From positions 1-64,000 of the forward strand of contig JANYHJ010000095.1 in the NCBI GenBank assembly GCA_025359135.1: a DNA stretch of 64,000 bases, written 5' to 3'. Source of the DNA: Gemmatimonadota bacterium (lineage in GTDB: Bacteria > Gemmatimonadota > Gemmatimonadetes > Gemmatimonadales > Gemmatimonadaceae). The stretch's first letter is position 1. Each line of letters opens with the position of its first letter. A program made the position numbers and the translations under genes. Positions 1-8,791 of this stretch are shown piece after piece. The notes under the pieces are model-generated. The model did not search any database. It was given only the letters and a program-made list of their open reading frames with translations, and was not told the DNA's origin.

Positions 1-48
1 CGAGCGGGACTGCATCATCCGGGAATGAGCCCGGGACTACTCACCGCA

Positions 49-93
49 GTGTCACCCATGTACCCGGTCTGACGTGTTACCGATGTACCCGGC
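49..93. repeat. Two 20-base direct repeats, insertion-sequence-end-like
   Basis: Two copies of a 20-base unit start at 49 and 74 (25-base period). They match at 17 of 20 positions and share the core ATGTACCCGG. Tandem repeats of this general form (TGTNACCnATGTnCCCGG) are common at the ends of IS21- and IS481-like elements. No transposase is visible here, so this would be the edge of an element lying outside the window, or a remnant. Assignment rests on recollection of the motif style only. Confidence 0.4.
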
Positions 94-103
94 TATTCAG
101 GCA

Positions 104-922
104 CTACTGCCGACCTGCAACTTCGATGGGCAGGACAGCGCGGCGGCTGGCAAACGCGGAGCGGAGGGCCTCGTCCAGTGCGTGGCTACGCTCCATCTCG
201 GCCCACAGCGCACCCTGCGCGCGGAGAATGCGTGTCGTGGAATCCTTTGAGAAGCTCACCTGTTTTGCCTTCGTGAAGGCCGCATCAAAATCCCGATACA
301 GAGCCGAGTGTGGTCGAAAGGTCGCCCGGTTCACGGCGACGAAGACGACCGCCTCGACGAGCGGGTCCACGGGAGAAGTCAGTTGCGTAATGCCGTTGGC
401 GCCACTGCAAATGTGAACGAACAGCGTGTCCCCCACGGCAGACACACGATCGGGGAAGTAGAAGCGCGCGGCAATCTGTCGGAGCTCGAGGGTCGTCACC
501 GCTATGCGGGGAGCGGGCGGAAGGTCACCCGTGATGACGCGCCCCCGCGGTCGCCAGTAGCGCACCAGCATGGCAAACAGGCGCTCGTTGAAAGGGGGAC
601 TCGCCTGGAGCGTCGCGATGATTGAATCCCGTACGGCTTCAGGGCGGTCGCCTTTGCGAACAAAGCGTGGAAACGCACCGGGGGTGTGACCGGCGAGGTA
701 CATGACGACATCACCGTGCGCGGCCAGAAAGTCGTGTAGAAGCGAACCGCGGGGCACGCTGTCGGTCGCGAGGGTTACGACCGGCACACTGTCGGGCTGC
801 CCGAATACGGGCGTCGTTTCGATACGCACCCAGCGCTGATACTCCCGACGCACGTCCGCTGCGGTGACGGTGTCGGTCGGGGTCACAAGCAAGCTGGCGG
901 CGACAGCGGCTGCGAGAATCAT
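104..922 (-). CDS. Secreted protein of unknown function
   Basis: This 272-residue protein is not recognised as any family. It begins with a hydrophobic stretch (MILAAAVAASLLVTP) that looks like a short signal peptide with little positive charge, so it is probably exported. The rest is a soluble mix with no obvious repeats or catalytic motif; the C-terminal half contains a charged helix-like stretch around residues 200-250. The ATG at 922 is the only reasonable start and has no clear ribosome binding site. It stands alone, with IS-like repeats just beyond its 3' end and an integron attC-like hairpin about 35 bases before its start. Its base composition looks less GC-rich than its neighbours. 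The context suggests an acquired gene, possibly a gene cassette; its function is unknown. Confidence 0.6.
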   Translation of the reverse strand: MILAAAVAASLLVTPTDTVTAADVRREYQRWVRIETTPVFGQPDSVPVVTLATDSVPRGSLLHDFLAAHGDVVMYLAGHTPGAFPRFVRKGDRPEAVRDSIIATLQASPPFNERLFAMLVRYWRPRGRVITGDLPPAPRIAVTTLELRQIAARFYFPDRVSAVGDTLFVHICSGANGITQLTSPVDPLVEAVVFVAVNRATFRPHSALYRDFDAAFTKAKQVSFSKDSTTRILRAQGALWAEMERSHALDEALRSAFASRRAVLPIEVAGRQ

Positions 923-955
923 TAGGATTGCCCTCGGCAGTAAGTCCCTTCGTAT

Positions 956-1019
956 GCCTAACGAGTATTAGACAGTTCCGCGCTTTCAGCCGCCATCGGC
1001 TTACACGCTCGAATTAGAC
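956..1019 (-). other. Integron attC-like recombination site (candidate)
   Basis: Read on the minus strand, the segment begins with GTCTAAT (1019-1013) and ends with GTTAGGC (962-956), which fits the integron R' consensus GTTRRRY. The two ends can pair over seven bases with two G-T wobbles. Between them lie a 5-base stem AGCCG/CGGCT (988-992 with 997-1001) and flanking TTC/GAA and GCG/CGC pairs separated by unpaired bases, as is typical of attC hairpins. A second GTCTAAT at 973-967 breaks the symmetry, and the 5' box ends in AAT rather than AAC. The secreted-protein gene begins 34 bases after it, the usual cassette layout. No integrase is in the window. Confidence 0.4.
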
Positions 1020-1102
1020 AGCTTGTACCCCTGACGCCGCACCGCGCAAGTCCCGGTACAGGCGCGGCTTGGCCACCGCTCCGGCTGCCAGCCTCACCAC
1101 GT

Positions 1103-1118
1103 TAGGTCGTTCGACCTA
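1103..1118 (-). terminator. Short hairpin after the heptosyltransferase gene
   Basis: TAGGTCG and CGACCTA form a perfect dyad 8 bases beyond the stop codon of the glycosyltransferase. The loop would be small and no T-run follows, so terminator function is only possible. Confidence 0.25.
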
Positions 1119-1126
1119 TCCCCGCA

Positions 1127-2269
1127 CTATTCAACTCCCATCCCCACCATCGACCGCACATACCCCGCGTACGCACTCCTCCACCGCTCCACCTTCGCCA
1201 CCACCTGCGCTACCGAAATCTGCCCCATCCGCCCCGGCCGGTTCTCCATGCTCACCGGATACTCTTCCCCCGGATCGCCGTACGCATCGATCATCAAATC
1301 CTGGAACCGCCGATACGGCCCCACGCGCTTCGGATTCGAATACGCGATCAACGACACCACCGGCCGATCGATCGCCACCGCCATGTGCAACGGCCCCGTA
1401 TCAGGACTGAGCGCCACCGCCGCGCCATCGAGAATCGCGGTCAGCCGTCGCAGCCCGGACCCGAGCGCATTCACCGTCGGTACGCCGCTTTCGCGCTCGA
1501 TCACCGCGCGCGCCGCGAGCTCCCTTGGTGACTCCCCACCGCACAACACCGGCTGCAGCCCGAAGTCGTGCCACAACACCCGGCACACCTCCGCCCACCG
1601 CTCCGGCATCCAGTCTTTCTCCGCCTTGCTCGTCGCCACGATGATCGCGGCCGCGGGGCGCTCGAGCTTGTCAAAGAACTCACGCTGCCACGCACGCTCG
1701 CTCTCCCACGGCCCGAGGTTCCACGTCACCCGCCCACGCGGCACGCCGAGCGCGTCGAGGAACTCCAGGTACTGATCCTGCACGTGCTGCCCGGCGTGCG
1801 GCGGAATCTGGTGCGTCGTGAAGAGCCAGTTGCCGTCGCGCGCGCGTGCGCGATCGAATCCCAACTTGACCGGCGCCTTCGCGAAGCTCGTGATCAGCCC
1901 CGCCTTGAAGTACACCTGCAGGTTGAGCACGAGGTCCAGCGGCCGCGTCGCCAGTTCGCCGCGGATTTCGTTGAACGCCGCAATCGCCTCGAGTCCGCGC
2001 TTCCGCTTGAAGAAGACGATCTCGTCCACCAGCGGATGCCCCAACACCAGCGAGCCGGGCCCGGGTTGCAACACCCACGTCACCCGCATCGCGGGATGAT
2101 GCGCCTTGAGCGCGTGCAACACGGGCAACACGTGAACCACGTCGCCGGCCGCGCTCATCATGACGATGCCGACACGATCGAACTTGGCGCGCACGAGCGG
2201 CGCCGCGGCGCCGTCAACGATGCCGCTTGTCGACGCCGAGCTCGACGGACGAGGTACCATCGCACTCAC
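1127..2269 (-). CDS. Glycosyltransferase family 9 (ADP-heptose:LPS heptosyltransferase-like)
   Basis: This 380-residue protein has the GT9 layout. An N-terminal Rossmann half starts with VGIVMMSAAGDVVHVLP (about residues 33-49), where the family has its G(D/E)xxHxLP motif. The C-terminal donor-binding half has SPDTGPLHMAVAI (about 289-301), the conserved D-T-G-x-x-H motif for the nucleotide sugar. Known members transfer heptose or a similar sugar to the lipopolysaccharide core on the cytoplasmic face of the inner membrane. It is the last gene of a three-gene minus-strand operon. Its GTG start at 2269 overlaps the TGA of the upstream Kdo-kinase-like gene (GTGA), implying coupled translation; an ATG at 2260 is the alternative. 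Pairing with an LPS-core kinase supports a role in envelope glycolipid synthesis. Exact sugar specificity is not readable. Confidence 0.85.
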   Translation of the reverse strand: MSAMVPRPSSSASTSGIVDGAAAPLVRAKFDRVGIVMMSAAGDVVHVLPVLHALKAHHPAMRVTWVLQPGPGSLVLGHPLVDEIVFFKRKRGLEAIAAFNEIRGELATRPLDLVLNLQVYFKAGLITSFAKAPVKLGFDRARARDGNWLFTTHQIPPHAGQHVQDQYLEFLDALGVPRGRVTWNLGPWESERAWQREFFDKLERPAAAIIVATSKAEKDWMPERWAEVCRVLWHDFGLQPVLCGGESPRELAARAVIERESGVPTVNALGSGLRRLTAILDGAAVALSPDTGPLHMAVAIDRPVVSLIAYSNPKRVGPYRRFQDLMIDAYGDPGEEYPVSMENRPGRMGQISVAQVVAKVERWRSAYAGYVRSMVGMGVE

Positions 2270-3054
2270 GTCGGGCCCTCCTCGTCCAACCCGAGCAGCA
2301 CGCGATCCGCCGCCTCGAGCGGCGCCGCCAGCATCCCCGCTCGCTTGGCCAGTGATCGCGCCAGCCGCGCACGATTCGCGCGTCCAACGCCCGCATCACC
2401 AGCAACGCCGAACGTCACCACGTCCGTATCCAGCAACCACGCCACCAGCACGGCATCCGCGTCATCCGCGTCCTCCGCACCATGCGCGCCGGGCGCGAGC
2501 AACACGTTCTTCGCATTCAGGTCCGGATGCTGCACGCCACCCGCGGTCATCGCGTCCAGCAACGCCGCCACGGCGGGGAGCACGCGTGCGCGCCGCTCCT
2601 CGACCGTCAGTCGTCCAAGCAGCGCCAACAGGTCGGCGCCACCTGGCACTTCGCGCGTCGCCACGTCCGCACGCGCAAACCCGATCGCGGCGGGATACAC
2701 CACATACGCGAGCACGCGCGGCGTCGGGAGGCCAAGCGCCGCAATGCGCCGGCTCGACTCGAACTCCGCAGGTGCACGCGTCGGCGCGCGAAACAGGTCA
2801 CCCGTCACCGGCGCGAGCACGCCACCATGCGTCGAGTGCCGCACCACCACAGCCTCGGGGCCCAGCGTCACCGCCCACGCCGTCGCGCGCCCCATGTACG
2901 CACGCGCCCCCGGCTGCGATTCGGCCCACGCATGCAGCGTGCGGCCACCGTCCAGTGCACGCAGCAGGGCAGGGGCCACCGCGCGTTCCGCCATCCCCTG
3001 CGCGTGCGACGCGGTCACCGGCACGACATCCGGCGGCGCGGCGCCCGCGGTCAC
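2266..3054 (-). CDS. LPS-core sugar kinase, Kdo kinase/InaA-like
   Basis: The protein has about 262 residues and belongs to the protein-kinase-like fold used by 3-deoxy-D-manno-octulosonate kinases. The catalytic loop HPDLNAKNVLL matches the H-x-D-L-N-x-x-N pattern of Kdo kinases (HRDLNAHNVLL in the family), and LLDTD about 30 residues later sits at the DFG-equivalent metal-binding position. It likely phosphorylates a sugar of the lipopolysaccharide inner core in the cytoplasm. The start chosen is GTG at 3054, which overlaps the cyclase stop as GTGA; the reading frame stays open further upstream but only as antisense to the conserved cyclase domain. It is followed by a heptosyltransferase, again with a four-base overlap. 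The N-terminal glycine-rich loop is hard to place, so family membership rests mainly on the catalytic loop and the neighbour. Confidence 0.75.
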   Translation of the reverse strand: MTAGAAPPDVVPVTASHAQGMAERAVAPALLRALDGGRTLHAWAESQPGARAYMGRATAWAVTLGPEAVVVRHSTHGGVLAPVTGDLFRAPTRAPAEFESSRRIAALGLPTPRVLAYVVYPAAIGFARADVATREVPGGADLLALLGRLTVEERRARVLPAVAALLDAMTAGGVQHPDLNAKNVLLAPGAHGAEDADDADAVLVAWLLDTDVVTFGVAGDAGVGRANRARLARSLAKRAGMLAAPLEAADRVLLGLDEEGPT

Positions 3055-4715
3055 AACACCACGCTGTAGACCGGGAGAGGCTGGCTCTTGCCCTTGAGCT
3101 CCATCGGCGGATGACTCTTGAGCTTGGGCGGTTCCTTGAGCGCCGCCTTGAACTGCTCCGAGAGCAAGATCTCGCCGGGCGCGGCGGCGCCACACAGCCG
3201 GCTCGCGGTGTTCACCGTATCGCCGATCACGGTGTACTCGAGTCGCCGCTCGGAGCCGATGTTGCCCGCGAACGCATCGCCGCAATTGAGACCGATGCCG
3301 ATCGAGAGCGTCGGGCGCCCCTCGGCTTTCCAGCGCTGGTTCAACTGCTCGAGCTCCGCCATCATGTCGATCGCCGAACGCATCGCGCGATCCGGGTCGT
3401 CGACCTCCGCGAGCGGCGCGCCCCACTGTGCCATCACCGCGTCGCCGATGAACTTGTCGAGCGTGCCGCCGTGGCGGAACACGCACTCCACCATTTCCGT
3501 GAAGTACTCCGAGAGGAGCTTCGCCATGTCGGACGGATTCATCGTCTCCGACATCGCCGTGAAGCCGCGGATGTCCGAGAAGAGCACCGACACCGTGCGC
3601 TTGTCGCCGCCCAGCTTGACGGCGTCCGGGTTGTTCGCGATCCGCGCCGCGAGGCCGGGCGTGAAGAACCGCTCGAAGTTGGACCGCGTCAGCGCTTCCT
3701 TCCGGATCCGCTCGGAGAACTGCGAGTTCTCGATGGCCACGGCGGCAATGCCACCGAACGCGATCAGGAAGCCCAGGTCATCCTCGGTGAACCGGTGGCG
3801 CGTGAAGAGGCAGTCCACGTAGATCACGCCGAGCGCGCGCCCTTCGCTGCCCACGAGCGGCGCGCACATGGCGGAGCGCACCTGCTGCAGCACGATCGAC
3901 TGCCCCGCGAAGCGCGCGTCCTCGCCGGCGTCCTCCGACACGATCGCCTGCCGTCCGCCGTACACGGCGCGCGCGATCGACTGCGGCACCATCGTCCCGA
4001 GCGTATTCCCCTTGCGATCCTTCGCGATCTTGGGATGCAGGTCGCCAGACTCATCGCCCAGCAGGATCGCCACGCGATCCACAGGGAAGATGCCCCACGA
4101 CTTCTCGACGATCTTCTCGAGCAGCGCGTCCACCGTGATCGACTTGGTCAGCTCGGTGGACACATCCAGCAGCGTGGTCAGTCGCTCCTGCGTGCTCGAC
4201 GTGTCGCGGTCCTTCGCGGACGCGTTCGGCGACGCTGCAATGGCTTCCTGTTCCTTGCTCCGGAGCGACGCGGCCAGCAGGTCGCGGAAGTCGGCCGGCA
4301 GCGACTTCACGATCGTGGCGCCGGCCATCTTGGGCTGCTGCGCCGTCGGCGAACCACCCATCGGGGTCGCCATGCCGTGATCGGGCATCGGCGGCGGGCC
4401 GACCGGCGTCGGATGCGCGACCGCCGCCGGTGCGAGCACCTCGAGCCGGAAAGGCACCTTGCCGAACGTCACCGCGTCGCCGTGGTGGCAGCTCGCCTCG
4501 GTGATCTGCTGCCCGTTGCGAAAGGTGCCGTTGCTCGACCCCAAGTCACGGATGAGCACCTTGCCGTCGACAATCGACACCTCGGCGTGCCGCCGCGAGA
4601 TGGTCGGGTCGGCAATCGGGATGTCGCTCGTCAGCGCTCGCCCCACGACCATGGGCGCGGTCGTGCGGAGATCGACGTTCTGGTTGCCTTCGAGGCCGAT
4701 CAGGGTGTACTTCAT
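3051..4715 (-). CDS. FHA-GAF-adenylate/guanylate cyclase (class III)
   Basis: This cytoplasmic protein of 554 residues has three modules. An N-terminal FHA domain (about 20-90) shows the phosphothreonine-binding signature ISRRHAEV and LGSSNGTFRNG. A GAF domain follows (about 185-340). A class III nucleotide cyclase domain fills 370-554, with the metal-binding motif VLFSDIRGFTAMSE, GDAVMAQWGAP and the GDTVNTASRL signature. The family makes cAMP or cGMP; base specificity is not assigned here. The FHA domain suggests that partner binding or activity depends on Ser/Thr phosphorylation, and a candidate membrane Ser/Thr kinase is encoded at 18453-20549. The gene leads an operon whose next two genes are LPS-core enzymes, coupled by GTGA overlaps. 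The ATG at 4715 precedes the FHA domain directly, and the gene is divergent from cardiolipin synthase 68 bases away. Confidence 0.9.
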   Translation of the reverse strand: MKYTLIGLEGNQNVDLRTTAPMVVGRALTSDIPIADPTISRRHAEVSIVDGKVLIRDLGSSNGTFRNGQQITEASCHHGDAVTFGKVPFRLEVLAPAAVAHPTPVGPPPMPDHGMATPMGGSPTAQQPKMAGATIVKSLPADFRDLLAASLRSKEQEAIAASPNASAKDRDTSSTQERLTTLLDVSTELTKSITVDALLEKIVEKSWGIFPVDRVAILLGDESGDLHPKIAKDRKGNTLGTMVPQSIARAVYGGRQAIVSEDAGEDARFAGQSIVLQQVRSAMCAPLVGSEGRALGVIYVDCLFTRHRFTEDDLGFLIAFGGIAAVAIENSQFSERIRKEALTRSNFERFFTPGLAARIANNPDAVKLGGDKRTVSVLFSDIRGFTAMSETMNPSDMAKLLSEYFTEMVECVFRHGGTLDKFIGDAVMAQWGAPLAEVDDPDRAMRSAIDMMAELEQLNQRWKAEGRPTLSIGIGLNCGDAFAGNIGSERRLEYTVIGDTVNTASRLCGAAAPGEILLSEQFKAALKEPPKLKSHPPMELKGKSQPLPVYSVVL

Positions 4716-4783
4716 TCAGCCGTGAAATATGGCACTCAACCCCGCCTTCGCCTAGCTCCGCCCACCCCGGCCCGGGGGGGTGG

Positions 4784-6223
4784 ATGATCCCCTGGCGAGA
4801 CCCCGCCTTCTGGGCGGAACTGTTCGTCATCTCCGACTGGACGATTCGCATCGTCATGGCGGGGGTCGTGCCGTTCCGACGCGCGCCATCCGCGGCTGTG
4901 GCGTGGCTGCTCTTCATCTTCGCGTTTCCCTGGATCGGTCTGGCCGCGTACCTGACCCTCGGGAGCTGGCGCCTCCCCGCCGCACGCGTCGCCCAATACG
5001 ACCGGCTGCGCGGACGCCTCACCGAGCTGATCGCGCACATGCGCAAGGACCCACGGGCGCGGCGGCCGCGCATCAAGCCCGAGTTCGAGGGCGCGGTGAT
5101 GCTGGCCGAGAATCTCGGGCACCTGCCGATTGTCGGAGGCAACGCGGTCGAACTCCTGCCCGACTACGACGGCACGATCGACCGGATCGTGACCGATATC
5201 GATGGTGCCGGGCGCCACGTGCACGTGCAGTACTACATCTTCGCCGACGACACGGTGGGTCAGCGCGTGATGGCGGCGCTGGGACGCGCGGCGGGGCGCG
5301 GCGTTGTCTGTCGGGTCCTGATCGACACGGTCGGAACCGGCGCGCGCACCCTGCGGCGCCTGCTGCCGCAGATGCGGGCCTTGGGCATCCAGGCGCACGA
5401 GTCACTCCCGCTCGGCCTCTTCCGCCGCAAAGCCGCGCGCTTCGACCTGCGCAATCATCGCAAGATCGTGGTCGTCGACGGCACCGTGGCCTACACCGGC
5501 TCGCAGAACCTCGTGGAGTCGCTCGGCGACGACGGGCTCTGGAACGACGAGATGGTGGTGCGGCTCGAGGGACCGGTGGTGCTTCAGCTGCAGGGCACCT
5601 TTGCGGCCGACTGGTTCATCGAATCGGACGAGATGCTGCCGGACGACGTCTTCCCCGAACTCGCGGCCTGCGGCACCGTGGCGGCGCAGGTGCTGCCGAG
5701 CGGGCCGGGCTTTCCGGTGGGCAACTACCAGCACCTGCTGCTCTCGTTGCTCCACGGCGCGCGCAAGCGCGTCATTCTCACGACGCCCTACTTCATTCCC
5801 GACGAGGCGCTGCTCCAGGCGCTGCACACGGCCGTGCTGCGCGGAGCGCGCGTCGATCTGGTCGTGTCGGAGAACCTCGATTCGCGGTTCGTCGCGCTGG
5901 CACAGGCCTCGTACTACGACGACCTGCTCGAGTTCGGCGTGCACGTGCACCGCTACCGCGAGCGCTTCCTGCACGCCAAGCACGTCACGATCGACGACGA
6001 AGTGGCGGTCATCGGCTCGAGCAACCTCGACATCCGCTCGTTCCGGCTCAACAACGAGGTGAGCGTCGTCTGCTACGACGCCCACGTGGCGTCGCAGCTG
6101 CGCGCGGAGGCCGAGCGCACGATGGCCAAGGCGACGCCGTTGGTGGCCGCGCAGTGGGCCAAGCGCAGCCTCGCTCCGCAGCTCGTGGAAAACCTCGCGC
6201 GCCTGCTCAGCCCGCTGCTCTAG
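4784..6223 (+). CDS. cls: Cardiolipin synthase (phospholipase D family)
   Basis: This 479-residue enzyme is expected to join two phosphatidylglycerol molecules into cardiolipin at the inner membrane. Two hydrophobic N-terminal segments (about 10-30 and 38-58) match the membrane anchor of bacterial Cls. Both catalytic HKD motifs are intact: HRKIVVVDG near residue 226 and HAKHVTIDDEVAVIGSSN near residue 397. These are followed by the typical GSQN and GSSNLDIRS. Length is normal for the family. The ATG at 4784 lies just after a run of G that could serve as a weak ribosome binding site. The gene is monocistronic: it is divergent from the cyclase operon and convergent with the downstream lipoprotein gene, 13 bases away. 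Confidence 0.93.
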   Translation: MIPWRDPAFWAELFVISDWTIRIVMAGVVPFRRAPSAAVAWLLFIFAFPWIGLAAYLTLGSWRLPAARVAQYDRLRGRLTELIAHMRKDPRARRPRIKPEFEGAVMLAENLGHLPIVGGNAVELLPDYDGTIDRIVTDIDGAGRHVHVQYYIFADDTVGQRVMAALGRAAGRGVVCRVLIDTVGTGARTLRRLLPQMRALGIQAHESLPLGLFRRKAARFDLRNHRKIVVVDGTVAYTGSQNLVESLGDDGLWNDEMVVRLEGPVVLQLQGTFAADWFIESDEMLPDDVFPELAACGTVAAQVLPSGPGFPVGNYQHLLLSLLHGARKRVILTTPYFIPDEALLQALHTAVLRGARVDLVVSENLDSRFVALAQASYYDDLLEFGVHVHRYRERFLHAKHVTIDDEVAVIGSSNLDIRSFRLNNEVSVVCYDAHVASQLRAEAERTMAKATPLVAAQWAKRSLAPQLVENLARLLSPLL

Positions 6224-6236
6224 CGCGCATACGGCG

Positions 6237-7265
6237 CTACGGCTTGCTCGTGAGTCCGCTGCCGCCCACCGAGTCAGCGCCGCGCTTGCCGTCGAGCACC
6301 GCCTGCGACGTCATGATCGTCACGTCACCCACGGTGACGAGCAGACGACCCTCGCCCTGCGGCGCGCGGGTGCCACCGCCGGTGCGCATCGTGCGCACGG
6401 CGCGCGCCACTGCGGCTAGGCGCGCTGGGTCGACGCTGGCCGTGTTGTGCGCCGGCAGCAGGCGCGTCACCGGTGGCAGGACCGCGATCATGCGCGCGAG
6501 CGAGCTCTCGTAGGCGTCCAGGTCGGTCTCCGGCGCGAAGAGCCAGATCGTCGACTCGTAGTACGAGTCGCCGGTGAAGAGCAGGTGATGCGCCCGGTCG
6601 ACGAGCGCGATGGCGTCCGGCGTGTGGCCCGGCGCCGCGAGGATCTCGAGCGTGCGTCCACCGAGATCGAGCGTGTCGCCCGCCTTCACGCGGCGCGACA
6701 CGGTCCACGGCCGCGTGCGCAATCCGGCCGTGTCGACCGACGCAGGCACCGGCTCGCAGAGGCTTTCGGCGTCGACTTCGCCCTTGAGCATCGCGTGCGC
6801 CTTGCCGAGCTCGTTGGCGCGTGTGTACGGCGTGTCCATGCCCAGCACGTCGCTGAACTCCCAGTTACCGCCGACGTGATCGAAGTGCGTGTGCGAATTG
6901 AGCACGCTCACCGGTAGCGTGGTGAGGTGCTCGACCACCGGGCGGATCGGCACCAATCCGATGCCGCTATCGAAGAGGAGCGCGCGCTTCTCTCCTACCA
7001 CGAGATAGGCGATCGCCTCCTGGAACTGCTTCGCCTCGACGATCGCGAAGACGCCGGGCTCCACCCGGTAGACGGAGTACCAATCGGTACCCGCGTCCAC
7101 TGGCGTCAGCGCCTTGTTGGCCGCGCGCGGTAGCTCGTTGCACCAGCGCACTGCCGGGTTGGCGGCGTAGGCCGAGGTCTTCGGCGCTTCCTTGCAGGCG
7201 ACGAGTGTCGCCGCGAGTCCCACCACTGTCGCGCGCATTGCAGGTCGTGCCGATCGACGAATCAC
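6237..7265 (-). CDS. Metallo-beta-lactamase-fold lipoprotein hydrolase
   Basis: A 342-residue protein with the zinc-binding motif HTHFDHVGG, a second ligand region APGHTPDAI and LLFTGDSYY, all typical of the metallo-beta-lactamase fold. The N-terminus MIRRSARPAMRA has basic residues, followed by a hydrophobic run ending in a lipobox LVAC, so it is probably a lipoprotein anchored in the envelope. The start chosen is GTG at 7265, overlapping the trpE stop as GTGA; ATG at 7238 would give a shorter form that still keeps the lipobox. The substrate cannot be read. The fold covers beta-lactamases, lactonases and thioester or phosphate hydrolases, so antibiotic resistance should not be assumed. Its coupling to trpE has no obvious metabolic logic. 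Confidence 0.8.
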   Translation of the reverse strand: MIRRSARPAMRATVVGLAATLVACKEAPKTSAYAANPAVRWCNELPRAANKALTPVDAGTDWYSVYRVEPGVFAIVEAKQFQEAIAYLVVGEKRALLFDSGIGLVPIRPVVEHLTTLPVSVLNSHTHFDHVGGNWEFSDVLGMDTPYTRANELGKAHAMLKGEVDAESLCEPVPASVDTAGLRTRPWTVSRRVKAGDTLDLGGRTLEILAAPGHTPDAIALVDRAHHLLFTGDSYYESTIWLFAPETDLDAYESSLARMIAVLPPVTRLLPAHNTASVDPARLAAVARAVRTMRTGGGTRAPQGEGRLLVTVGDVTIMTSQAVLDGKRGADSVGGSGLTSKP

Positions 7266-8791
7266 GATGCTCTTCCATGTCGCACGCGGCCGATGGCGGT
7301 GAGCATCGCGCGTGCCTTGTTCTCCGTCTCCGCCCACTCCATCGCCGGCACCGAGTCCACGACGATCCCCGCGCCCGCCTGCACGTTCGCCTCGCCACCG
7401 GCAATCACGCACGTGCGAATCGTGATCGCGAGGTCCATGCGATCACCACCCGCGCCGATCCAGCCGACCGCACCCGCGTACGGCCCGCGCCGCTCGGGCT
7501 CGAGTTCGTCGACGATCTGCATCGCCCGCACCTTGGGCGCGCCGGTCATCGTGCCTGCGGGAAAGGTCGCCCGCAGCACATCCATCGCGCTCACGCCGTC
7601 CCGCAGCATGCCCGTCACTTCGCTCACGAGGTGAAAGACGTGCGAGTACCCCTCGACCTGCATGAACTCCTTCACCTGCACGGTGCCGAAGCGCGCCACG
7701 CGCCCGATGTCGTTGCGTCCGAGGTCCACGAGCATCACGTGTTCGGCCCGCTCCTTCTCGTCAGCCGCAAGTTCCGCCGCGAGCGCGGCATCCTCGGCTG
7801 GCGTGCGGCCGCGCGGTCTCGTGCCGGCAATCGGACGTACGGTGGCCGCGCCATCGGCGACGCGGACATGCAGTTCGGGGCTCGAGCCCACCAGCTCCAC
7901 GCCGTCGAGCACGAGGTGGAACATGTACGGGCTCGGGTTGATGGCCCGCAGCGCGCGGTAGAGGTCGTTCGGCGCGAAGTCGAGCGGCACGCGGATGCGA
8001 CGCGCGAGCAGCGCCTGAAAGCAGTCCCCGGCGAGGATGTACTCCTTGATGCGCGCGACGGCCCGCTCGAACTGCTCCCGCGACATGACGCTCGTGCCAA
8101 TGGCCGGTGGGGCGTTGGCGTCGAGCACGAGCGGCGGCAGAGCGCGTGGGGCTCGCAGCCGGCCGAGCGCGTCGTCGAGCCGCGCCTGCGCCTCCTCCCA
8201 GAGGGCGCGCAGCGCGTCAGCGCTGGCCTGCTCCGGCACGGGGACCCCGTAGATGAGCTGCGCTTCGCCCTTGAGGTTGTCGAGCACCACGAGCACCCCC
8301 GGAAGGAGCAGGAGCGCGTCGGGCGCGTGCACACCGCGCGGCGGCGCGTGGTCGAGTCGCTCGATGTGTCGAACCATGTCATAGGACAAATACCCTACTC
8401 CGCCGGCCCACGGACCCTCGAGTCCGGGCGTGGCCACCGGCAGGTGTCGCGCCAGAACCGCCTCGAGGTCCGCCAGCGGATCGTCCGGTCGGCGTGCGCC
8501 AGCCCACCCGGCTGCGGGGGACCATTCTTCGACCACGCCATCCGACAGCCGCCATGCCCCACGTGGCTCGGTGCCGAGGAAGGTGTAGCGCGACCAGGTC
8601 TCGGAACCGGCGGGCGCTGACTCGAGCAGGAAGGCGAACGGTCCACGCCGCAACTTCGCGAAGGCGGACACGGGGGTGTCGGTGTCGAGCAGCGTCTGGC
8701 GCCAGACCGGCACGAGCCCGCCGGCGCGCGCGCGCGTTGCGAAGTCGTTGAATGCCGCGTCGGTTGTCGCGAAAGACGATGATGTAGCCAT
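7262..8791 (-). CDS. trpE: Anthranilate synthase component I
   Basis: A 509-residue enzyme that converts chorismate plus ammonia or glutamine-derived ammonia to anthranilate, the first step of tryptophan synthesis. The chorismate-binding domain shows ADEKERAEHVMLVDLGRND (about 327-345), TFPAGTMTGAPKVRAM and the C-terminal GAGIVVDS block. The N-terminal regulatory region has LLESAPAG followed by RYTFLG, the tryptophan-binding LLES pattern. No glutaminase subunit (trpG) or other trp gene is adjacent, which is unusual. The only partner is the metallo-beta-lactamase-fold lipoprotein overlapping its stop. The ATG at 8791 has no Shine-Dalgarno sequence and follows a C-run and T-run. No leader peptide or attenuator is visible. 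An aminodeoxychorismate synthase (PabB) role cannot be fully excluded, but the LLES motif favours TrpE. Confidence 0.9.
   Translation of the reverse strand: MATSSSFATTDAAFNDFATRARAGGLVPVWRQTLLDTDTPVSAFAKLRRGPFAFLLESAPAGSETWSRYTFLGTEPRGAWRLSDGVVEEWSPAAGWAGARRPDDPLADLEAVLARHLPVATPGLEGPWAGGVGYLSYDMVRHIERLDHAPPRGVHAPDALLLLPGVLVVLDNLKGEAQLIYGVPVPEQASADALRALWEEAQARLDDALGRLRAPRALPPLVLDANAPPAIGTSVMSREQFERAVARIKEYILAGDCFQALLARRIRVPLDFAPNDLYRALRAINPSPYMFHLVLDGVELVGSSPELHVRVADGAATVRPIAGTRPRGRTPAEDAALAAELAADEKERAEHVMLVDLGRNDIGRVARFGTVQVKEFMQVEGYSHVFHLVSEVTGMLRDGVSAMDVLRATFPAGTMTGAPKVRAMQIVDELEPERRGPYAGAVGWIGAGGDRMDLAITIRTCVIAGGEANVQAGAGIVVDSVPAMEWAETENKARAMLTAIGRVRHGRAS

Follow-up and report, generated by a model that had tools for sequence, protein, structure and literature searches.

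Positions 956–973 on the minus strand of the window (the whole 64,000-nucleotide stretch analysed here, G000:C159:1–64000, whose position 1 is the start of its contig), together with the region that extends to position 1126, are likely to form an attI-type integron recombination site without an adjacent integrase gene, and the open reading frame at 104–922 is likely to be the first cassette inserted there. What is observed is the match of the core to attI sites, its location, an integrase gene and attC sites elsewhere in the genome, relatives of the candidate cassette gene beside attC sites, and recurrence of the arrangement in the family Gemmatimonadaceae. Integrons are described as one integrase and one adjacent attI, and the usual interpretation of integrase-less arrays is that an integron has degraded or that cassettes were inserted at chance sites. 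The window site is most likely a real integron feature that the original prediction, an attC-like site at 956–1019, misnamed, and part of a pattern that recurs in the family. The genome's own assembly comprises 243 contigs, and the 62 named relatives are all metagenome-assembled genomes.

On the minus strand, a glycosyltransferase family 9 (GT9) gene (1127–2269; PF01075, 125.3 bits) is followed by a 204-base intergenic region (1126–923), the open reading frame (922–104) and the end of an insertion sequence (101–1). The GT9 gene precedes the site in the same direction, is chromosomal (a match was found in 40 of the 60 relatives searched) and occupies the place that the integrase gene (intI) holds in the integrase-linked integrons read here. 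The right end of the insertion sequence (1–101, plus strand), presumably IS481-like by its resemblance to that family, is cut by the contig end and identical over 101 of 101 bases to C6:16725–16825; contig C6 carries a complete copy. Because this repeated element and the contig start occupy positions 1–101, the attC of gene 104–922 and anything farther out are hidden. No integrase gene is present in the 1.5 kb upstream of the window core, the site has no match in plasmids, positions 1–3000 have no Rfam match at E ≤ 1, and a scan of 900–1300 gave no sigma-70-type promoter or terminator match. Integrase gene, attI and cassettes are thus not together at the window locus; all of them are together on contig C152. 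Very long open frames on the plus strand at 1568–3097 and 2160–4787 lie antisense to real genes, which is usual in G+C-rich DNA, and are no evidence of genes.

The boxes on which the attC reading was built are present on the minus strand (GTTAGGC at 962–956 and GTCTAAT at 1019–1013, read directly), and the open reading frame does begin 33 bases past the site. The internal hairpin postulated between the boxes did not hold up: the minus strand shows no excess folding over shuffled controls (z −0.69 for 956–1022 and −1.04 for 956–1020; plus strand, z −0.17). R1, a covariance model based on 13 attC sites from the genus, recovers attC-like sites from other genera in the family (e.g., 68 bits in G011 and 50 bits in G004). 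Run over the window with default filters, it gave nothing at E ≤ 10; with filters off on positions 1–3000, its best score was 6.1 bits (E 1.1), so the site is not an attC; the latter search also found no attC in the 955 bp between the site and the contig start. Two attC readings were discarded in this way, that of 956–1019 for want of both excess folding and an R1 score, and that of a wider pair, GCCTAAC (956–962) with GTTAGGT (1101–1107), spanning 956–1107, for want of an R1 match in the window. It is very improbable that the site is an attC closing a preceding cassette of a chromosomal array, as originally proposed; its R-box-like ends with partial complementarity on one strand and the existence of the wider complementary pair would fit such a site, but the folding and R1 results contradict it, and the site is preceded by a chromosomal glycosyltransferase gene rather than a cassette. 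The site instead marks the start of an array and matches the attI cores that lie next to integrase genes in the family. The original prediction was to fall on a poor attC score in a genome with no integrase or other attC; the score is poor, yet an integrase gene was found on another contig (C152) and further attC sites on C152, C6 and C171. Its cassette reading survives in altered form, since a recombination site very probably does lie beside a cassette gene, but one of attI type.

The informative element is a second GTCTAAT, left unused by the original prediction, that lies four bases before GTTAGGC. The core GTCTAAT-ACTC-GTTAGGC (956–973, minus strand) is thereby composed of an L box (973–967), the spacer ACTC (966–963) and an R box (962–956), and the GTCTAAT at 1013–1019 (minus strand, read directly) may be an accessory integrase-binding box; extra GTCTAAT boxes are also found in the attI region of G073. 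First-cassette junctions next to integrase genes share the same layout, a box of 7 bases that in most cases terminates in AAT, four further bases and GTTRNNY. The window site has the L box, 4-nt spacer and R box of the integrase-adjacent sites, but the genome's integrase gene sits on contig C152, and the site is called attI-type because that gene is not adjacent. Integron integrases (IntI) cleave the R box behind its first G, and the predicted cassette insertion point would fall there, between 962 and 961. The recombination point is given as 5′-G↓TTRRRY-3′ in the consulted section of one report (PMC9892861).

A weight matrix was derived from 13 integrase-adjacent cores picked by eye from 14 integrase loci; one locus (G013) was dropped, no core being apparent, and three further integrase matches (two in G008 and one in G004) that came without loci were left out. 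When each core was left out in turn, the true site ranked first in its own locus in 12 of 13 cases (second in G008a), with scores of 8.6–24.0 bits. Within the 64-kb window, 956–973 ranked first at 24.5 bits, the runner-up scoring 14.2, and it still ranked first, at 23.1 bits, with a matrix from which the most similar genome, G073, had been removed. The best matrix site in 28 other glycosyltransferase loci scored 16.2 bits and lies on the opposite strand (L036); because this value falls within the range of true sites, single matches below about 17 bits are not decisive. The sequence concerned (L036:1385–1402, in G017) is attI-core-like and situated 116 bp downstream of the same glycosyltransferase gene.

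The window core and the integrase-adjacent site of G073 are identical at 17 of 18 bases, with an unbroken run over the first 16. Four sites, the window's among them, served to write the pattern KTYKAAYWCWCGTTAG, which occurs at five places in 119 genomes, namely the four source sites and G073, and whose reversed control occurs at two; G073 is therefore the sole independent match, identical to the window at 16 of 16 positions and located directly after an integrase gene. The first genome pattern, based on palindromic R boxes, was uninformative (22 forward against 30 reversed-control matches) and was dropped. A stricter core, GTYYAATNNNCGTTAKRY, has 43 occurrences in 36 of 179 family genomes, compared with two for the reversed pattern. 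Judged from these comparisons, the 18-bp core is evidently more than chance. It would be surprising indeed if the site were a coincidental resemblance and gene 104–922 an ordinary orphan: the motif is short, there is a single site, and the G+C content of the gene is mildly low, but the core is enriched over reversed-pattern controls and ranks first in the matrix search, a sister locus exists in another genome (G001) and the relatives of the gene lie beside attC sites (see below for both). That the gene is less G+C-rich than its surroundings, as originally noted, holds in direction (64.3% against 67.8% for the window), but the difference is mild, 6.6% of 316 windows of 819 bp being as low.

None of the 43 occurrences of GTYYAATNNNCGTTAKRY was dropped from the counts that follow. 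Of these occurrences, 22 have an integrase gene upstream on their own strand, with the core 169–492 bp from the end of the tblastn match; the other 21 have no upstream integrase at E ≤ 1e-5, and 20 of these are preceded by at least 1.5 kb of sequence (the remaining one, L120, has 184 bp and is counted among the 21). An attC follows in the right orientation at E ≤ 0.05 in 12 of the 21 integrase-less and 15 of the 22 integrase-linked cores, and several cores without a downstream attC run into a contig end. Both kinds of core occur in one genome in G095, G109, G132, G138, and G200 according to the pattern, and in G000 (the genome of the window) and G001 according to other evidence. Contig-end artefacts are excluded for the integrase-less sites G109b, G095a, G095b, and G138b because these lie at least 9 kb inside contigs of 58–255 kb.

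The likeness between integrase-less and integrase-linked sites extends beyond the core. With the core excluded, 10 of the 21 integrase-less cores have upstream sequence homologous to an integrase-linked attI at z > 10 (best of 22 comparisons, 60 shuffles); the best z for the remaining 11, the window included, is 0.7–6.1. Blastn matched blocks of about 200 bp between two sites of one genome in four pairs (G095b, 84% over 200 bp; G095a, 74% over 207 bp; G109b, 78% over 203 bp; G132a, 74% over 204 bp), matched G093 to G132 at 70% over 221 bp, and in five other pairs matched 44–76 bp next to the core, with a short extra piece in two. The four blocks run from about −182 to the R box, and the stop codon of the partner integrase gene lies 1–58 bp farther out, at −185 to −239. 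The block is built of a left dyad, a middle dyad and the core. Module ends were set by blastn; a lenient local alignment was set aside because in G+C-rich sequence it extended far beyond the homology. The genes upstream of the integrase-less copies are mutually unrelated (10 open frames scanned, 7 matched) and include a met-zincin, M14 peptidases at two sites, a ribonucleotide reductase and an S-adenosylhomocysteine hydrolase, among others. The ribonucleotide reductase (G132, L151:3–2633), 326 bp upstream of its integrase-less core, has an intein-like insert with a LAGLIDADG domain.

These observations can tentatively be assembled into a distributed integron, in which one IntI would serve several scattered attI modules of up to about 200 bp, copied or moved without intI and each founding an array beside a different host gene; such an arrangement is conceivable, though we hold it with less than even confidence. 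Perhaps IntI itself would bring about the copying or moving by acting on boxes at the module ends. The alternative that the window site is what remains of a complete integron, whose integrase gene was deleted and whose attI and cassettes were left behind, possibly now inert, is rather unlikely. It would account for a glycosyltransferase gene in the position and direction of intI and for the diverged upstream half of the window site, and one copy elsewhere, G095b (L153), keeps what is likely a decayed integrase tail. In that copy, blastn against its partner matched an extra 41 bp (76% identity, E 0.001) inside the end of the partner's integrase gene, and a frame, RVLHRGLLGVRSSL, resembles the partner's integrase tail, HVLNRGGLGVKSPL, in the right place and order, with a score of 47 that is below the best of 25 shuffles (52). 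G095b thus probably derives from a stretch that included intI or at least its terminal part, whether by loss of that gene or because a longer piece was copied. Against a remnant at the window, neither the remaining 20 integrase-less cores (L120 being almost without testable sequence) nor that of G001 showed a collinear tail, and there is little room for one in the window because the glycosyltransferase frame reaches to 154 bases before the core; furthermore, the copies lie beside various unrelated genes in genomes that keep an intact intI elsewhere.

The whole putative attI-type region of the window, from the glycosyltransferase stop to the R box (956–1126, minus strand), is less clearly related to other attI regions than its core. 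Of seven local alignments, core included, that to the attI of G073 was the best (z 5.0, equalled by 0 of 500 shuffles), and that to G002 came next (z 2.6). With the core excluded, the best match against 22 integrase-linked regions was weak (z 3.3, 1 of 60 shuffles), and blastn of the window against G073 matched the 16-bp core alone. The region is unlike the attI of its own genome (z 1.1). A small dyad at 1103–1118, TAGGTCG-TT-CGACCTA (read directly), is possibly the left dyad that is present in other attI regions of the family, although the support is weak, its sequence being different.

The weakly attI-like upstream half is also what would be expected if IntI had inserted the cassette at a chance GTT-containing sequence, a secondary genomic site of attG type rather than a copy of attI. 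Such sites are described as targets in the consulted parts of two reports (PMC12444791, PMC10127599), the second of which indicates that they need little beyond GNT or GTTRRRY. The window site has more than this, its L box, 4-base spacer and R box all matching attI with a score far above the rest of the window, and an attI homologue stands at the same place in the sister MAG G001; insertion at a chance site is accordingly an unlikely origin.

In G001 (contig C143), the same glycosyltransferase gene is followed by an attI-like site and then by an attC. The site aligns with that genome's own integrase-linked attI over about 220 bp (z 11.6, 0 of 500 shuffles as good), with blastn matching only the last 22 bp. 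Among 30 glycosyltransferase loci, only those of the window and G001 have a match to the core expression on the gene's strand and no more than 700 bp downstream. The window region is unlike the G001 site at this same locus (z 0.1), from which it follows that the two glycosyltransferase-linked sites arose separately or that one of them decayed or was replaced. A maf gene is found in the downstream flank of GT9 in 22 of the 30 loci but not in the window's genome or G001. The former has its maf gene on contig C6, which carries a cassette array of fitting direction at its far end, and the idea of one continuous stretch with the site between GT9 and maf is only partly supported, the gap not being spanned; the contig with the maf gene of G001 gave no attC match. 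By eye, two closely similar stretches in G001 with no obvious gene (L091:1–168 and 400–550) precede the attC and the integrase-less attI.

The putative first cassette gene (104–922, minus strand) encodes 272 amino acids with a signal-peptide-like N-terminus, as judged by eye, and its product has no Pfam, PADLOC or NCBIfam match. The family is confined to the window's genome and three others among 198 genomes searched. The relative in G088 (L117:6613–7431) is flanked on both sides by attC sites in its own orientation (6484–6580 and 7460–7559), that in G123 is directly followed by an attC (L115:3404–3502), and that in G087 has none at E ≤ 1; the presence of attC beside the relatives in two of three genomes supports the identification of 104–922 as a cassette gene. 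No relatives were found in plasmids or by a peptide scan of genome contigs. A structure model of the product, based on 4 sequences, is fairly confident (pLDDT 82) and has no PDB match at E ≤ 0.001.

The integron integrase gene of this genome (C152:2436–3371) scores 409.7 bits against a curated cut-off of 265; its uninterrupted product of 366 aa includes HTFRHSFATHLLEAG and STTMIYTHVLNKGGLG, which we take to be the HxxR and tyrosine segments of the recombinase. Three closely aligning repeats of about 104 bp adjoin the gene and recur on C6 and C171 and in both other genomes of the genus that were searched; their ends pair, one arm contains additional bases and they follow genes, and from these features and their orientation we take them to be attC sites. 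At the loci read closely, in G000, G001, G002, and G073, intI is transcribed toward the array. Part of a cassette with no obvious gene in the integrase-linked array of C152 (L018:842–1040) is shared with C6 (L086:9780–9905), where it lies between an amidohydrolase gene and the next attC (by eye), and this suggests exchange between arrays or the formation of a cassette from chromosomal sequence.

Under the preferred reading of an attI-type site, IntI made from the intact gene on C152 would act in trans on a second attI at the window locus and recombine the attC of a cassette into its R box, and transcripts of the upstream glycosyltransferase gene may extend into the first cassette. Host transcription may express the cassette because GT9 reads toward it and no terminator match lies between them. 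Recombination in trans, expression of the cassette and continued activity of the window copy are inferred; one integrase probably serves several docking sites in trans. Cassettes of integrase-less arrays are described as mobilisable in trans in the consulted passages of two papers (PMC12444791, PMC9668308).

The arrangement resembles several known systems and differs from each. Treponema integrons, in which intI is described as transcribed toward attI and the array (in the part of PMC3607928 consulted), share with the window the L box, the short spacer, a GTTRRRY-like R box and the cassette that comes next; the window site lacks the adjacent intI and has a glycosyltransferase gene in that place. 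A CALIN, a cluster of attC sites lacking an integron integrase (at least two attC without intI), likewise holds cassettes away from intI but is defined by attC alone, whereas an array of the window type begins with an attI-type site at which new cassettes could enter. Insertion away from the integron is also a property of attG and other secondary IntI sites, which the consulted text characterizes as short consensus sites distinct from both attC and attI, in contrast to the attI L box and spacer of the window. Extra attI sequence away from intI is known as well from Delta-attI-type cassettes of class 1 and class 2 integrons; according to the sections consulted, these carry short fragments (14–18 nt for attI1) that replace attC inside an array, with one complete attI1 of 65 bp (PMC12901181). 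The attI-type sites of this family, unlike these, stand at array starts, at other loci, and reach about 200 bp in the clearest pairs. Among the listed titles and abstract openings of open-licence papers, no description was found of whole attI copies without intI at other loci, the Delta-attI-type cassettes coming closest.

If several attI copies in a genome are live, new cassettes can be taken up at more than one locus, each with a different host promoter, and functioning platforms would be found among the "CALINs". IntegronFinder is said, in the consulted portion of its description, not to detect attI outside class 1 (PMC9024848); the core motif and the attI module make integrase-less attI sites searchable.

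Further observations concern the arrays themselves. Insertion sequences break the cassette arrays of G000 in the assembly. A transposase gene, presumably IS30-like, lies between attC sites on C171 (L087:8154–9110), and its end also starts contig C152 (L018:1–64). In G008, four partial matches to the integron-integrase model were found on contigs C14, C5, C20, and C8, three of them over the cut-off. In the integron array of G002, one stretch (L090:4060–6772) ahead of the attC at 6857 holds what by eye resemble genes for a MerR-type regulator, a small transporter, a protein that binds heavy metals and a mercuric-reductase-like protein.
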